NCBI GenBank assembly: GCA_021813445.1
Contig: JAKAKP010000047.1
Location: forward strand, 1-39,379
Length of the DNA stretch: 39,379 bases
Direction: 5' to 3'
DNA from: Deltaproteobacteria bacterium
GTDB lineage: Bacteria > Desulfobacterota > Desulfobaccia > Desulfobaccales > 0-14-0-80-60-11
In this document: one piece after another, positions 6,623-19,756 of the stretch
Position numbering within the stretch: position 1 is the first letter of the stretch
Layout of the letters: every line of letters begins with the position of its first letter
Translations under genes and position numbers: made by a program
The notes under the pieces: generated by a model
What the model saw: the letters and a program-made list of their open reading frames with translations, nothing else
What the model was told of the DNA's origin: nothing
Databases searched by the model: none

Positions 6623-8062
6623 ATGGAAGGAAGGAAAGGCATTAGCGAAGATTGGCTATCCCTCTGGATCGGTTTGTTCATCTTTGTCCTCGGCCTGGGG
6701 ATGTTTATCGGCTTCGACCTCCTGGGCTGGGGAATTAAAACCAACATGTGGGTGGACCTTTCCAAGGCCCTGGGGTCGGTTTCTGGGGCCCTTAAAGGGA
6801 TGCCGGGGATTACGTCCTTATTCTTAACCTACCTATTTATGCTGATCATCACCGAGATCGCCGCGGTGGCCATGGGGGTCAACGCCGGCCGGTTCATCCT
6901 GGCTTTCACTATTGTTTTTTGGATAAGTTACGCTTGTTTCCTTCTGGGCAACAACGCCTATATCGCCGCCAATACCCCGGCGATGCTTAAAAGTTTCGGC
7001 ATCGGCTGGTCTTTGAAACTTACGGGGGAGGCGGGGTTTATCATCGCTCTCATCGCCGGTTTAATCGTCGGCAACTTTTTTCCGGGATTTGCCAAGATTT
7101 TGGAACCCGCCACGCGGCCGGAGTTATACATCAAAACCGCCATTGTCATCCTGGGGGCCTTTTTGGGTGTCAAGGCGGCGGGGGCCCTAGGATTGGCCGA
7201 GGCCGTCCTGTTCCGGGGACTGTGCGCCATTGTTGAAGCGTATCTGATCTATTGGGCCGTGGTTTATTTTGTTGCCAGGAAATACTTCAAGTTCAGCCGG
7301 GAATGGGCCGCGCCTTTGGCCTCCGGCATCTCCATCTGCGGCATTTCCGCGGCCATCGCCACCGGCGGCGCCATCCGGGCCCGGCCCGTGGTGCCCATCA
7401 TGGTCTCCTCACTGGTGGTCATCTTTGCGGTGGTGGAATTGTTGATCCTGCCCTTTCTGGCCCAGATATTTCTTTGGACTCAACCCCTGGTGGCCGGGGC
7501 CTGGATGGGGTTGGCGGTGAAGACCGACGGCGCGGCGGTGGCCTCCGGCGCGATCGTGGAAGGCCTGATTCGGGCCAAGGCCATGGCTATGCAGGGAATT
7601 AACTATAAAGAAGGTTGGATGGTCATGACCGCCACCACCGTCAAGGTCTTCATCGATGTCTTCATCGGGGTCTGGGCCTTTATCCTGGCGGTGATCTGGT
7701 GCGCCAAGATCGAATGTAAGGGCGGCCGCATCCAGGCTTCGGAGATCTGGGACCGGTTCCCCAAGTTCGTCATGGGCTATGCGATTACCTTTATCCTGAT
7801 GCTGCTTATTTGCCTGTCGTCGGCTAAGGCCCTCAAGACGGCCAACGACGCGGTGGCGGGCATGGACACCTTCAGGGTAATGTTCTTTGTCCTGACTTTC
7901 TTCACTATCGGGGTGGTGTCCAACTTCAAGAAGCTGTGGGAGGAGGGTATCGGCAGGCTGGCCGCGGTTTACGTCCTCTGTCTTTTCGGATTCATCATCT
8001 GGGTAGGGTTGCTGATCTCCTGGATCTTCTTCCATGGGGTCCATCCGCCGCTGGCCGGCTAA
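6623..8062 (+). CDS. Large YeiH/UPF0324-type membrane transporter (putative sulfate/anion exporter family)
   Basis: The 479-residue protein is almost entirely hydrophobic, with about a dozen membrane segments. The stretch PLASGISICGISAAIATGG is the signature region of the YeiH/UPF0324 family (Cons_hypoth698), followed by RARPVVPIMVSSLVVIFAVVE. Usual YeiH proteins have roughly 330-350 residues. This one has extra N- and C-terminal membrane segments. The family is annotated as a putative sulfate exporter on thin evidence, so substrate is open. The AGGAGGTGA ribosome site lies inside the end of the leader peptide. It is preceded by a sigma-54 promoter and followed 18 nt later by a one-TM protein, probably a partner subunit. 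Confidence 0.82.
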   Translation: MEGRKGISEDWLSLWIGLFIFVLGLGMFIGFDLLGWGIKTNMWVDLSKALGSVSGALKGMPGITSLFLTYLFMLIITEIAAVAMGVNAGRFILAFTIVFWISYACFLLGNNAYIAANTPAMLKSFGIGWSLKLTGEAGFIIALIAGLIVGNFFPGFAKILEPATRPELYIKTAIVILGAFLGVKAAGALGLAEAVLFRGLCAIVEAYLIYWAVVYFVARKYFKFSREWAAPLASGISICGISAAIATGGAIRARPVVPIMVSSLVVIFAVVELLILPFLAQIFLWTQPLVAGAWMGLAVKTDGAAVASGAIVEGLIRAKAMAMQGINYKEGWMVMTATTVKVFIDVFIGVWAFILAVIWCAKIECKGGRIQASEIWDRFPKFVMGYAITFILMLLICLSSAKALKTANDAVAGMDTFRVMFFVLTFFTIGVVSNFKKLWEEGIGRLAAVYVLCLFGFIIWVGLLISWIFFHGVHPPLAG

Positions 8063-8962: not shown

Positions 8963-11503
8963 CTACCTCAGTCCCTGAAACCAACGCTTCAGACGCCAGC
9001 GGCTCCACCAACGCTTGCTGGGACTGACGGGGGCGGCGGCCTTGGCTTGCCGCCAGCCGGGGTTGAAGAGGAGTTCCAGCAGGTGGAGCGATGCATGGCC
9101 GGCCCGGTGGAATTTGGCGCGGCAGGAGGCGCAATAGATCACCAAGTCCCGGGTAGCCTCGGAGAGGCGGAACGCGGTCATCTTTTGGGCCAGGGCATTG
9201 TCCACCGCGGGCACCAGGCCCCCGGCGCCGCAGCAGATGGTGCGCTCCCGATTATGGGGCATCTCTTCCAGTCGGTGCCCCCCGGCCGCGACCAGATCCC
9301 GCACCGCGTCCTGGACCACCGGCATATGCCGGGCGCCGCAGGGATCATGGACCTGGAAGACCGAGCCCGCCCCGTCCCGGGCGCTGGCCGGCAGGCCGTG
9401 CTCCAGCATCACTTCGTAAAGGGACCGGGTCTTGATCTGCGGCTGGAACCGGTTCAGGGTGTGCAGGCAGTGGGTGCAGGCGGCGATGAGTTCCTGGCCC
9501 CCCAGCTTCTCAAATTCCAGGGCCACCCGCGCGGCCACCTGCTCCTGGACCTCTTGCTCCCCCAGCATCAGGCTGGGCGCGCCGCAGCAGTTGAGAATGA
9601 CGCCGGTGTCCTGGAGCCTCTCCCGGAGGTAGCCATAAGCGGCCTTGACCAGGTGGGGGAAGTAGCCGGGCAGGGAGCACCCGGGGAAAAAGACCTGCCT
9701 GGCCTTACCCGTGGCCGGGTCCGGGCGGCTCAGGGTGAAGACGGGGTGGGTGCCCCATTTGACGTAGTCCTTAACCCCCTTGTGGCCGGGGAGAGGGCCT
9801 TGCCTCTGGGCCACCAACTGCCGCCGCACCTCCAGGCAGGCCAGGCCCGCGTGCAGGTCTTTAGGGCAGACCGCCTGGCACAGGCCGCAATAATGGCAGG
9901 AATAGGGGATGAGGGGCTCGGCCTCGCCCCGCTCCTGCACCAGGCGGACGATCTCTTTTTCCGTGTAGGGGAAGTGGTGCACGTATTGCTGCAGGAAGGT
10001 GCAGTCCTTGACGCATTGGGAGCAGACGCAGGCCAGGCAGCGGCCGGCCTCGGCCTGGGCGGCCGCCGGAGAAAACCCCGGTTCCACTTCCGCCCCAGGA
10101 TTTGCGAGCCTCTCAGCCACCGGCAGGCCGGGCCTGGCTTGCCGGGCCGCGGGCAGGACCCCGGTGGTGTCGACGATGAGCCGGGTGGTGCGGCTGGCCA
10201 GGGGAGGCAGGTCCGCTGGCAGGGGCTCCTGCTGCAGGTGGCTGTGAATGGCCAGGGCGGCCCGGCGGCCCGCGGCGAAGGCCGCCACCGCGGTGCGGGG
10301 GCCAGTGACCAGGTCCCCGCCGGCAAAGACGCCGGGAATCTGGGTGTGGAGGGTGACGGGGTCCGCTTCCAGGCGGTGGCTGGTGGCGGTGTCAAAGGCC
10401 AGGCCGGGGCCGAAAAAGCCGAAATCCGCGGTCTGACCCAGCGCCGGGATCACCGTGTCCACCTCCAGGGTGGACTGGGAGTCGGGCACGGGCACCGGGC
10501 AGAAGCGGCCCTGGGCGTCGGGCTCCCCTAACTCGGTTTGCTGGAGCAGCAGCCCTGCCAGCCGTTTATCTCCCAGGATGCGCACCGGCATGGTGAGGAA
10601 ATGAAACTGCACCCCTTCCCGGCCCGCCTCTGCCACCTCGGAGGCCAGGGCCGGCATGAGTTCCCGGCTGCGGCGATAGAGGAGATGGACCTCCCGGGCG
10701 CCCCGGCGCAAGGCGGTGCGGGCCGCGTCCAGCGCGGCGTTGCCGCCGCCGATGACCGCCACCCGGGGCCCCACCTCCGGATGCAGGCCGGAATTGGCGG
10801 CCCGGAGAAAATCCAGGACCGGCCACACCTGGGGCAGGTCCTCCCCGGGGATTTGCAGGGAGAGGCTCTTGTGCGCGCCCAGGGCCAGGAAGACCGCGGC
10901 AAAGTCCCGGCGCAGGTCCTCCAGGTGAATATCCCGGCCCAAGCGGGTGCGGAGACGGACCTCCGCGCCCATTTGCACGACCAGGCCCGTTTCCCGGTCC
11001 AGGACCTCCCGGGGCAGGCGAAAGGCCGGGAGATAGAGGCGCAGGGCCCCACCCAGGGCGTCGGCGGCCTCGAACAGGGTGACCTGATATCCCAGCCGCC
11101 GGAGTTCATACGCGGCCATTAGCCCCGCGGGGCCGCTGCCGACTATGGCTATCTTCTCGGGACGGTCAGGGCCGGGGACCGCGGCCCGGGATACGGCTGC
11201 CGGGTCCAGGTCGGCCAAATATCGCTTCAGCCCGGCAATGGCAATAGGGGCCTCTATCTGGCCCCGGGTGCAGGCGGCTTCGCAGGGGCGGGAGCAGATG
11301 CGGCCCAGGATGCCGGGGAAGGGGCAGCGCGCCAGCACCACCTCCAGGGCCCCGGCCATATCCCCCGCCTGTATCCGGCGAAGCTTTTCCCGGACCCGGA
11401 TGTCCAACGGGCACGCGGCCTGGCAGGGGGGCCGCTCCTCGCCGATGCACTCGGAGAGGATTTTGTCAGACCAATTGGCTTCTGGAGGGTTCACAGCTTT
11501 CAT
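8963..11503 (-). CDS. GltD-like FAD/NAD(P) oxidoreductase fused to HdrD-like (CCG) Fe-S domains
   Basis: The 846-residue protein has, in order: a GltD-type N-terminal Fe-S domain (Cys 19, 27, 31, 70, 74, 78), an FAD motif GSGPAG (122-127), an NAD(P) motif VIGGGNAALD (about 250-259), a closing FAD motif GVFAGGD, two 4Fe-4S motifs (about 489-501 CLACVCSQCVKDC and 536-546 CHYCGLCQAVC) and two CCG domains (Cys609, CCG 639-641, CTHC; then DPCG, CCG 757-759, CASC). GltD-like halves pass electrons between NAD(P)H and Fe-S clusters; CCG domains in HdrB/D and GlpC bind clusters for disulfide or quinone chemistry. A soluble electron-confurcating or thiol-disulfide role is inferred. The substrate is unknown. 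Confidence 0.9.
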   Translation of the reverse strand: MKAVNPPEANWSDKILSECIGEERPPCQAACPLDIRVREKLRRIQAGDMAGALEVVLARCPFPGILGRICSRPCEAACTRGQIEAPIAIAGLKRYLADLDPAAVSRAAVPGPDRPEKIAIVGSGPAGLMAAYELRRLGYQVTLFEAADALGGALRLYLPAFRLPREVLDRETGLVVQMGAEVRLRTRLGRDIHLEDLRRDFAAVFLALGAHKSLSLQIPGEDLPQVWPVLDFLRAANSGLHPEVGPRVAVIGGGNAALDAARTALRRGAREVHLLYRRSRELMPALASEVAEAGREGVQFHFLTMPVRILGDKRLAGLLLQQTELGEPDAQGRFCPVPVPDSQSTLEVDTVIPALGQTADFGFFGPGLAFDTATSHRLEADPVTLHTQIPGVFAGGDLVTGPRTAVAAFAAGRRAALAIHSHLQQEPLPADLPPLASRTTRLIVDTTGVLPAARQARPGLPVAERLANPGAEVEPGFSPAAAQAEAGRCLACVCSQCVKDCTFLQQYVHHFPYTEKEIVRLVQERGEAEPLIPYSCHYCGLCQAVCPKDLHAGLACLEVRRQLVAQRQGPLPGHKGVKDYVKWGTHPVFTLSRPDPATGKARQVFFPGCSLPGYFPHLVKAAYGYLRERLQDTGVILNCCGAPSLMLGEQEVQEQVAARVALEFEKLGGQELIAACTHCLHTLNRFQPQIKTRSLYEVMLEHGLPASARDGAGSVFQVHDPCGARHMPVVQDAVRDLVAAGGHRLEEMPHNRERTICCGAGGLVPAVDNALAQKMTAFRLSEATRDLVIYCASCRAKFHRAGHASLHLLELLFNPGWRQAKAAAPVSPSKRWWSRWRLKRWFQGLR

Positions 11504-11672: not shown

Positions 11673-12701
11673 TCAGGGCTTGCCTCTCTTCTCCCTGGCT
11701 CCAGTTTTTGGGGGGTTGCCAGTAGGCTGCGGCCCCGCCGCGGCGGCGTTGCCCATCGCCGCGGCCTCCGGGCTGCGGCTCCATTCGATCCAGGAGCCGG
11801 CGTAGAGGTGCAGCTTCTCCAGGGGGTAGCCCGCCAGGTAGAGGCCCAGCAGACTGAGGGTGGCCGACAGGCCGTTATGGGAGTACAGATAAATGTCTTT
11901 ATCCGGGGTGGCTCCCTGGGCCCTGAAGATTTTCTTAAGCTCGACTGCAGGCTGGAAAAAGCTCTTGTAGGGCCCGGCAGCAACCACGGCCTCCTTCCAC
12001 ACCAGCCCTACGGCTCCGGGAATGTGGCCGGGCCGGGCCGCGCCTTCCTTCTCCTGTTGACCCAGGTATTGCCTGTGGGGGCGGACGTCCACAATTACCT
12101 TCCCGGGGGCTTGGGAGGCTATCTTGACCGCGGCCAAGTCGGCCACCAGCTTAGGGAACGGCGAGGCCCCGGGTAATTTCACCCGGGTGCGGCTGACCGG
12201 GGGCGCGGTCATCTGGGTGGGATAGCCCTTGGCCTTCCAGGCCTCCAGGCCGCCGTCCAGGAGCCGCAGCCGCTCCAAAGGAAAGCCGTAATAAGCCAGG
12301 ACCAGCCACAAACGGCTATGATCATAGTGATCGCCATAGAGGATCAGGGTGTCCTGGCCGCTGACCCCCAGGCGGCCCAGGAGGGCTTCCACCTGGGCCC
12401 GGGAGGGGATGAGCCCCTGGCTTTGGTGGTCATCCAGGTCCGGCCGCCAGACTTCCAGGGCGCCGGGGACATGCCCCAGGTAGTACTTGGCCTTATGGCG
12501 CACATCGATGATGCGGAGGCCAGGGGCCTGGCGGTCCACCAGGGCCTTGAGCTCTTCGGGTTGAATCAGCGTCTCCGGATGGGCATAGCCCCCCTGGGGC
12601 ACGGGGAAAGCGGGAGTCGCCAGCAGCAGAACCAATCCCAGGGCCAGGAAGAGGGGCAGCCCGGCCTGTCTGTGGGTCCATTTTCTGGTATCCGGCGTCA
12701 T
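11673..12701 (-). CDS. Exported tandem rhodanese-domain protein lacking all cysteines
   Basis: After a signal peptide (LFLALGLVLLLATPAFP), two rhodanese folds are clear: IIDVRHKAKYYLGHVPGAL and VIVDVRPHRQYLG ending in HIPGAV. In active TST-type enzymes the second domain has a Cys in a YCxxGxxA loop. Here the loop reads YSHNGLSA, so Cys is replaced by Ser. The first loop reads LYGDHYDHSR. I find no cysteine anywhere in the protein. Thiosulfate sulfurtransferase activity by the usual persulfide route is therefore not expected. A binding or scaffold role in the periplasm is more likely. ATG 12701 is chosen over 12731 because CGGGAG lies 8 nt upstream. Genes on both sides run the same way. Confidence 0.85.
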   Translation of the reverse strand: MTPDTRKWTHRQAGLPLFLALGLVLLLATPAFPVPQGGYAHPETLIQPEELKALVDRQAPGLRIIDVRHKAKYYLGHVPGALEVWRPDLDDHQSQGLIPSRAQVEALLGRLGVSGQDTLILYGDHYDHSRLWLVLAYYGFPLERLRLLDGGLEAWKAKGYPTQMTAPPVSRTRVKLPGASPFPKLVADLAAVKIASQAPGKVIVDVRPHRQYLGQQEKEGAARPGHIPGAVGLVWKEAVVAAGPYKSFFQPAVELKKIFRAQGATPDKDIYLYSHNGLSATLSLLGLYLAGYPLEKLHLYAGSWIEWSRSPEAAAMGNAAAAGPQPTGNPPKTGAREKRGKP

Positions 12702-12787
12702 CAGGAGTCTCCCGGGTGCGGTCAGGCTCATGGCTGGAGAATCAGGTTTTCCTGGATTGAATGCCCTAATATTTACAAAGCTTAGTC

Positions 12788-16622: not shown

Positions 16623-17291
16623 TTACAAGAAGGCTGCAAGTTGCTGGGCGCAAAGATAGGTTCGCCAGCCGGGAGCTCCGGGTAGGGGAGGCCGCTCCAG
16701 GAAGGCCTGGAGGTCGGCGATGGTGTCGATGTCCGGCCAGGGAGGCAGGAGGTGCGCAGTCAAGGGCAACTGCCGGGCTCGGGCCAGAGTGTCAGCCAAA
16801 ACGGAGGAAGTGGACCAGGGGATGCCTTCGAACAGTTGCGGCTGGGGAGTTTTGAGACCCACCAGGTAATAACCGCCGTCCGGACTGGGGCCTAAAACCA
16901 GATCGGCCTGTTTTGATTCCAGGACTTGGACCGCATCTGTAACCATCTTAGTAGGAAGGTCAGGGCTGTCACTGTTGCGGATCAGGATGGTCTTAAAACC
17001 CGCGGCCCAGCCCCGGTCGAAGGCGCGAATCAGGCGGCTGCCCAGGTCGGCCCCTTCCTGGGGGAAGATGAAAAACCCGGCCGGGGTCAATTCCTGAAAG
17101 AATGTACCGGCGCTATCCGGGGTAAAGGACAGAGCCGGGGTGAGGCCCGGCACCCGGGCCGTCTCCTCCAGGATGTCTTCCAAGAGGCAGCGGTAGAGCC
17201 GGGCCGCGGCTTCTCCGGACAGAGGCGGGCAGAGACGCGTTTTTACTTGCCCCGGAGAGGGTTCCCGGGCAAAGATGATGAGCAAGGTCAT
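16623..17291 (-). CDS. Arsenosugar-associated glycosyltransferase, DUF2064 (TIGR04282-like)
   Basis: The 222-residue protein begins LLIIFAREPSPGQVKTRL, the nucleotide-binding start of the DUF2064/CofC-like fold, and has RNSDSPDLP and GPSPDGGYYLVGL, the family's hallmark loops. Proteins of this type cluster with ArsS and the TIGR04283 glycosyltransferase in proposed arsenosugar biosynthesis loci. They probably activate or transfer a nucleotide sugar. Here it is leftward, 268 bp from the divergent TIGR04283-like gene, with a GGGGAGGG hairpin between them. ATG 17291 has a modest ribosome site. Confidence 0.85.
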   Translation of the reverse strand: MTLLIIFAREPSPGQVKTRLCPPLSGEAAARLYRCLLEDILEETARVPGLTPALSFTPDSAGTFFQELTPAGFFIFPQEGADLGSRLIRAFDRGWAAGFKTILIRNSDSPDLPTKMVTDAVQVLESKQADLVLGPSPDGGYYLVGLKTPQPQLFEGIPWSTSSVLADTLARARQLPLTAHLLPPWPDIDTIADLQAFLERPPLPGAPGWRTYLCAQQLAAFL

Positions 17292-17559: not shown

Positions 17560-18246
17560 ATGAATTACGCCAATTCCCTGAGTTCTCAAGTATTTTCCAT
17601 AATACTGCCAGTTTACAATGAAGCCGGAGTGATTGGGAAGACGTTGGAGGGTTTGCCCAAAGCTGAGGATGCAGAAATCATCGTCGTGGACGGGGGCAGC
17701 ACTGACGGCACCACGGAAGTGGCCTCTTGCTTCCCATTCGTCCGCCTGCTCCGGGCTCCCAGAGGCCGCGGCCGCCAGATGAACACCGGGGCCTGCGCGG
17801 CCCGGGGGCAGTATTTGGTCTTCCTCCACGCTGACACTTCTTTGGGGCCGGTGCACCTGGAGGCCCTGCGCCGGGCCGCGGCGGACCCGGGATTCTTGGC
17901 CGGGGCCTTTGAGCTGATGCTGATGCCGCCGCTGCCGGCCCTCCGCTTCATCGCCTGGGGGGCCAACCGCCGGGCACATCTGCTGGGCCTCCCTTACGGC
18001 GACCAGACGCTCATCCTGCGCCGGGACTTGTTTGAGAAATTGGGGGGCTTCTCCCAGCAGCGCCCGGAAGACCTGGACCTGGTCCTCCGCCTGCGGCGCC
18101 ACACCCGCATCCAGATTCTCACCCCGCCGGTGGCCAGCTCGGGCCGCAAGTGGCTGCAACAGGGCTATTTTGGCACTACCCTGAAAAACTGGCTTTTTTT
18201 TGCCTACCACCTAGCAGAGCGCATTTTCACCCAGCGCTGGCATTAA
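17560..18246 (+). CDS. Arsenosugar-associated family 2 glycosyltransferase (TIGR04283-like)
   Basis: This 228-residue GT-A enzyme has FSIILPVYNEAGVIGKTLEGL, VVDGGSTDGTTEVA, the acceptor-side motif RGRQMNTGA and FLHADTSLGP, followed by QTLILRRDLFEKLGGF. These match the small cytosolic glycosyltransferases found with ArsS. It would transfer a sugar in arsenosugar or related metabolite assembly. It is the only rightward gene of this cluster, and hairpin repeats flank it on both sides. Confidence 0.87.
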   Translation: MNYANSLSSQVFSIILPVYNEAGVIGKTLEGLPKAEDAEIIVVDGGSTDGTTEVASCFPFVRLLRAPRGRGRQMNTGACAARGQYLVFLHADTSLGPVHLEALRRAAADPGFLAGAFELMLMPPLPALRFIAWGANRRAHLLGLPYGDQTLILRRDLFEKLGGFSQQRPEDLDLVLRLRRHTRIQILTPPVASSGRKWLQQGYFGTTLKNWLFFAYHLAERIFTQRWH

Positions 18247-19423: not shown

Positions 19424-19756
19424 TTACATGCTGATCTTGGCGGCCACGTTGCGCATCTGCACTCCGTGGACCAGGGCTGCGCCTCCCCGGATGGCCGCGG
19501 CGACGTGGACGGCTTCGGTCATTTCCTCCAGGTTGGAGCCGTTTTCCAGGGAGGCCCGGGTGTAGGCGTCGATGCAATAGGGGCACTGCACCGTATGGGC
19601 CACGGCCAGGGCGATGAGGGCCTTCTCCCGCACGGTCAGGGCGCCCGCGGCCATCACCCCCTGGTAATAATTCATGAAATTATCAAAGAGATCGGGCCGG
19701 TTTTGGCCCACCTCCTGGAACCTCTCCAGGTCCTTTTCTTCATAATAGTGAGACAT
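19424..19756 (-). CDS. AhpD-like (carboxymuconolactone decarboxylase) partner of ArsS
   Basis: The 110-residue protein has the AhpD active-site motif CPYC (Cys58, Cys61) in HTVQCPYCIDAYTRASLE, then EMTEAVHVAAAIRGGAALVHG. It matches the alkylhydroperoxidase-domain proteins that accompany ArsS-type radical SAM proteins, some of which have selenocysteine in place of the first Cys. Both are cysteine here. AGGAGG lies upstream of ATG 19756. It probably acts as a thiol redox partner, but this is inferred from context. Confidence 0.9.
   Translation of the reverse strand: MSHYYEEKDLERFQEVGQNRPDLFDNFMNYYQGVMAAGALTVREKALIALAVAHTVQCPYCIDAYTRASLENGSNLEEMTEAVHVAAAIRGGAALVHGVQMRNVAAKISM

Follow-up and report, generated by a model that had tools for sequence, protein, structure and literature searches.

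A cysteine-free, probably exported tandem rhodanese encoded directly behind a VTT-domain gene in a Desulfobaccales bacterium

The tandem thiosulfate/3-mercaptopyruvate sulfurtransferases (e.g. 1uar, 3p3a, RhdA 1e0c and E. coli SseA 1urh) contain two rhodanese domains and a catalytic Cys. Replacement of Cys by Ser in TSTD1 (C79S) is reported to abolish activity (PMC7274447). The rhodanese fold may also be kept for binding without turnover, as described for the eukaryotic, single-domain examples TBC1D23 (PMC7274447) and USP8 (PMC12057046). Rhodaneses containing selenocysteine (Sec) have been divided into forms 1-5 (PMC13188914), and the rhodanese-related COG2897 (SseA) has an entry in a selenoproteome table (PMC9312934). 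Other described relatives include TsoB (NF045694), a rhodanese/DsbD selenoprotein with a UxxxxU motif and a single rhodanese domain, and ExtH (NF040901), a rhodanese of a selenite/tellurite operon. Fusions of DedA with rhodanese are also on record, with their purpose given as unknown (PMC10127716).

Here we describe P0001, a tandem rhodanese-like protein encoded in a window of 39,379 nucleotides (the whole stretch of DNA that was analysed; GCA_021813445.1, contig JAKAKP010000047.1) from a Desulfobaccales bacterium (Table 1). A reading made from the sequence alone had noted a tandem rhodanese without any Cys and with YSHNGLSA as its active-site loop, which lies in the C-terminal domain; this is confirmed by the open reading frame, with 0 Cys in 342 residues, and by two matches to PF00581 (89 bits, cut-off 22.2), which place the protein in the rhodanese superfamily. 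The start is the ATG at 12701, with GGGAG a few bases 5' of it, and a second in-frame ATG lies at 12731. The N-terminus carries a net charge of +2 ahead of its hydrophobic stretch, and signal-like hydropathy and charge are present in 13/13 orthologues; P0001 is thus likely to be exported.

Table 1. Features of the window around the rhodanese-like gene
Feature	Coordinates	Strand	Remarks
GltD-like pyridine nucleotide/dicluster oxidoreductase with CCG domains	8963..11503	minus	NF045663 'diclust_near_Sec' 525 bits, just under cut-off 530
Tandem rhodanese-like CDS P0001	11676..12701	minus	342 aa; stop TGA 11673-11675
C-terminal rhodanese domain PF00581; catalytic-loop domain in relatives	11775..12113	minus	profile match
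Codon TCC, Ser274 where relatives have catalytic Cys/Sec	11880..11882	minus	
N-terminal rhodanese domain PF00581, Asp-type loop YGDHYD	12228..12560	minus	profile match
Signal-like N-terminus, about residues 1-33	12603..12701	minus	basic start; hydrophobic stretch of 15 residues beginning at residue 14
VTT-domain (PF09335) membrane protein, directly upstream of P0001	12788..13483	minus	adjacent in 5/5 clade genomes
TIGR04282 arsenosugar-biosynthesis glycosyltransferase-like protein	16623..17291	minus	
TIGR04283 arsenosugar-biosynthesis glycosyltransferase	17560..18246	plus	opposite strand
ArsS, arsenosugar-biosynthesis radical SAM (seleno)protein TIGR04167	18446..19414	minus	uninterrupted ORF
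TIGR04169 arsenosugar-associated peroxidase-like protein	19424..19756	minus	

In the AlphaFold model (pLDDT 74.7) the tandem sulfurtransferase fold is intact, with residues 38-319 sharing the two domains and fold of the enzymes named above. The Thermus rhodanese 1uar, among the matches that Foldseek ranked high, superimposes with a Z score of 28.7 and an rmsd of 2.4 over 266 residues. Unlike these enzymes, P0001 has Ser274 in place of the catalytic Cys that characterizes an active sulfurtransferase, and has lost the loop and E/N/D residues. It scores 91.5 bits against the SseA equivalog profile NF008557 (cut-off 250), below which one Sec and one Cys orthologue also fall (106 and 121 bits), and 65.4 bits against ExtH over residues 43-309 (cut-off 200). 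P0001 is not orthologous to TsoB, and the TsoB profile gives no match to it at E 0.001. It differs from the TBC1D23 and USP8 scaffolds in being bacterial, tandem and probably exported. The sequence-only reading held that a serine-based or purely binding role in the periplasm would be new; inactive rhodanese domains in themselves are already known according to PMC7274447. What is new is the range of Cys, predicted Sec, Ser and Gly at one position within one orthologue group.

Orthologues were sought with a close-relative model in 395 genomes of the phylum, 10 of which score above 450 bits, with the next genome at 220 bits. Whole-family searches widen the set to 5/22 genomes in the family of the window (f1) and 8/17 in a second family (f8), and all 13 proteins were aligned; no orthologue was found in 7 further genomes of the window's class. 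Named counterparts are available for 7 of the 12 orthologues outside the window (L033 to L039) and include a Desulfobaccales MAG (L035) for the Ser clade. In f1, position 274 is Ser in the window's genome (G000), G006, G001 and G011, encoded by TCC in each, and Gly in G013. In f8, it is an in-frame UGA in six of the eight genes (G034, G163, G315, G135, G235 and G408) and Cys in the other two (G071 and G407). The outgroups G123, G376 and G151 keep Cys in the loop YCQSGVRS or YCQSGVRT. A shared Ser among orthologues, for which the sequence-only reading had suggested a survey, is found in 4/5 f1 members but not in G013, while the retention of Cys that would have told against it occurs in f8, as Cys or UGA, but in none of the five f1 proteins. 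The Ser replacement is thus real and clade-specific. The complete absence of Cys from P0001 is incidental, since only two of the five clade members lack it (Cys counts over the whole open frame are 0 in G000 and G011, 3 in G006 and G001, and 1 in G013).

The UGA codons in the f8 genes are well supported as Sec, although unproven. All six genes can form a 7-bp hairpin with the loop AGUUUG, 24 bases 3' of the UGA, satisfying the bSECIS rules given in PMC13188914 (loop of 3-9, stem of 4-16, G in the first two positions of the loop, distance of 16-37 bases to the UGA). In-frame UGA and candidate bSECIS thus occur together in 6/8 f8 orthologues, where the UxxG loop resembles that of forms 2 and 4 described in the same review; P0001 has Ser, encoded by TCC. 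At columns of invariant residues, identical codons are found at 5/6 positions in the hairpin and 29/168 elsewhere (Fisher one-sided p 0.0011), and the hairpin contains all of the gene's most conserved windows. Synonymous shuffles match the observed hairpin energy in 503 to 1463 of 5000 trials across the six genes, and a stem of equal length arises in about 9 to 12% of synonymous shuffles of a single gene. As the energy is reached so often, it is weak evidence alone, and the argument for a bSECIS is carried by codon conservation together with the model rules. The hairpin pairs at 7/7 positions in G407, which has TGT, at 2/7 in G071 and at 3/7 in P0001. SelB scores above its cut-off in 12/13 orthologue genomes (G408 misses), and tRNA-Sec scores more than 75 bits in 11/13, with only 47 bits in G011 and G315. 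G001 has two tRNA-Sec matches, both of 78.3 bits, on different contigs (L127 and G001:C134:25843-25936).

A tree of 25 rows recovers the Ser/Gly clade (100/99) and the f8 clade (96/92) as sisters. The earliest branch inside f8 is the Cys gene of G071 (84/80 for the remaining genes), and that of G407 is nested among the Sec genes. The simplest history suggested by these sequences starts from Cys and comprises the changes Cys to Ser, Ser to Gly, Cys to Sec and Sec to Cys. Because the Cys gene of G407 (L095) is nested among Sec genes and still forms the full hairpin, it likely represents a recent Sec-to-Cys change, a type of event that a 2026 review describes as rare, with most documented cases in FdhA and SelD (PMC13188914). 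A Sec ancestor of both families was also considered, by which the Ser/Gly clade would be a former selenoenzyme (Cys to Sec to Ser/Gly) whose hosts keep the Sec machinery, and which would now serve a VTT transporter beside arsenosugar synthesis as its binding subunit in the periplasm. This is not preferred and seems to us a long shot: it costs one extra parsimony step, and none of the five Ser/Gly genomes matches the codons of the Sec genes significantly more often in the hairpin than elsewhere (p 0.095 to 0.76).

The loss at position 274 is accompanied by others. R41, E163, E211, C/U274, V278, N299 and D301 occur in every one of the 8 Sec/Cys orthologues and of the 3 outgroups but in none of the five Ser/Gly-clade proteins; judged from their conservation, they look like a catalytic set. 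The loop residue R279 is gone in 4/5 clade proteins and retained in G011, which suggests a stepwise decay of the loop. The loop itself varies within the clade (SHNGLS, SHSGLP, SRAGLR and GHTDLS), with Pro in two proteins and its glycine replaced by Asp in G013. D205, R207, G225, I227, P228 and G229 remain invariant in 16/16 proteins. The view that classical sulfur transfer is impossible is supported, the nucleophile being gone together with residues conserved in every Cys/Sec relative. The Sec/Cys proteins have a second Cys in column 187, which was considered as a resolving residue since lost by the Ser clade; as the outgroups have Val there, it is instead a feature of f8.

The VTT gene precedes the rhodanese gene on the same strand in all five clade genomes, the two genes overlapping by 8 bases at one extreme and lying 86 bases apart at the other; in the DedA/VTT-rhodanese fusions the two form one polypeptide, while here they are separate adjacent genes. 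Of 20 VTT loci, 14 were checked: the rhodanese is present in 5 and absent in 8, and one (L142) is too short to judge. The VTT protein is thus not dependent on the rhodanese, being found without it at 8/13 judgeable loci, and inheritance, not function, may explain why the two genes are neighbours in five genomes from three genera. Further upstream of P0001 lie the arsenosugar genes (TIGR04282, TIGR04283, ArsS and TIGR04169). TIGR04283 runs opposite to its arsenosugar neighbours in the window's family but shares their strand in G163 and G034. The f8 Sec/Cys gene is located in a different operon at 6/6 loci examined (L078-L083), preceded by a ThiF/rhodanese E1 gene and followed by a JAB desampylase gene, with Rrf2, a threonine-synthase-like gene, a ThiS/SAMP-NIL carrier and a CysM-like gene nearby (families were assigned on L080 and by similarity at the other loci, L082 being too short for the full set). 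From its gene content, this operon looks like one for carrier-protein-dependent cysteine synthesis. In G163 and G034 the arsenosugar genes and a VTT gene adjoin the f8 operon.

Our preferred interpretation, to which we assign a probability of about 0.6, is that P0001 is a maintained, exported pseudo-sulfurtransferase, likely a non-catalytic periplasmic accessory that partners the VTT protein through docking or ligand binding. The ancestor would have been an ordinary Cys tandem rhodanese, in which the catalytic Cys was replaced by Ser (Gly in one species) in this Desulfobaccales-type family and the remainder of the active site was lost. The gene would have settled directly behind the VTT-domain gene, beside the arsenosugar cluster, and the protein, presumably no longer forming a persulfide or transferring sulfur, would act at the periplasmic face by docking to the VTT protein or holding a ligand. 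The conserved fold, the putative export signal and the fixed place behind the VTT gene suggest this accessory role.

Maintenance of the gene is indicated by its substitution pattern. The reading frame is open in all five clade genomes, and the dN/dS of the core (NG86) is 0.23-0.29 in the 3/10 pairs that are computable, the other seven being saturated or numerically failing. The flanking oxidoreductase gives 0.18-0.25 and VTT 0.14-0.20, so that the core comes close to the former and lies a little above the latter. Over the whole gene the ratio is 0.30-0.34; the gene is thus under purifying selection, weaker than that on its neighbours. These higher values, the presence of the gene in only 5 of the 22 family genomes and the coordinated loss of active-site residues would also suit a decaying relic, drifting after its function was lost in the lineage. 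We consider this unlikely, since the open frame and signal-like N-terminus are kept in every clade genome, the core values are low and P0001 shares at least 54% identity with each of its four clade relatives. It is likewise hardly credible that a sequencing or assembly error masks a Cys or Sec codon, a possibility raised for Cys by the sequence-only reading and ruled out by the occurrence of TCC in four separate genomes, in which the surrounding loop also differs consistently.

A nucleophilic Ser274 in a novel reaction, a serine-based role having been raised by the sequence-only reading, would be consistent with the TCC-encoded Ser in 4/5 clade members. This is very improbable: Ser274 itself appears dispensable from its replacement by Gly in G013, and together with the loss of E211, N299 and D301 (and of R279 in most members) this disfavours serine catalysis, as does the lack of sulfurtransferase activity in TSTD1 C79S. 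The reading preferred here is a possible periplasmic role in binding or as a scaffold. In a more specific form, the nucleophile-less rhodanese cradle could bind an anion, a thiol or a thiolated or organic arsenic compound of the neighbouring pathway and pass it to the VTT or another protein. The intact fold with its six invariant residues and the nearby arsenosugar genes are compatible with this, and a Ser rhodanese can still bind, as suggested by the entry for PDB 6ktz, a ligand complex of EanB C412S. The variable loop, with Pro in two of the proteins, speaks against a conserved anion cradle and the arsenosugar connection is positional, making this a tentative and rather doubtful proposal; the neighbourhood is only a hint as to the ligand.

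With Cys, Sec, Ser and Gly all represented at one catalytic position and a tree to order the changes, this orthologue group from Sec-decoding organisms offers a good natural experiment in the apparent passage from a chalcogen enzyme to a pseudoenzyme, and also in the gain of Sec with one likely reversal to Cys (G407). The gene adjacency further points to a possible link between exported rhodaneses and VTT proteins. Among the papers searched, nothing on point was found for a Ser rhodanese, a Sec-to-Ser change or an arsenosugar-rhodanese association, which does not itself prove absence in print. Elsewhere in the window, 6623-8062 encodes a YeiH/Cons_hypoth698-like putative transporter, far under the TIGR00698 cut-off. 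The genome of the window has 14 rhodanese-domain matches, among them two rhodaneses with two in-frame UGAs each in the motif FYUAGLAUVRS (C40:5018-5317, L006:1501-1800; and C82:10449-10760, L007:1501-1812 minus). Both domains match TsoB (NF045694) over part of its length, and the host thus seems to use Sec in other rhodaneses and none in P0001.
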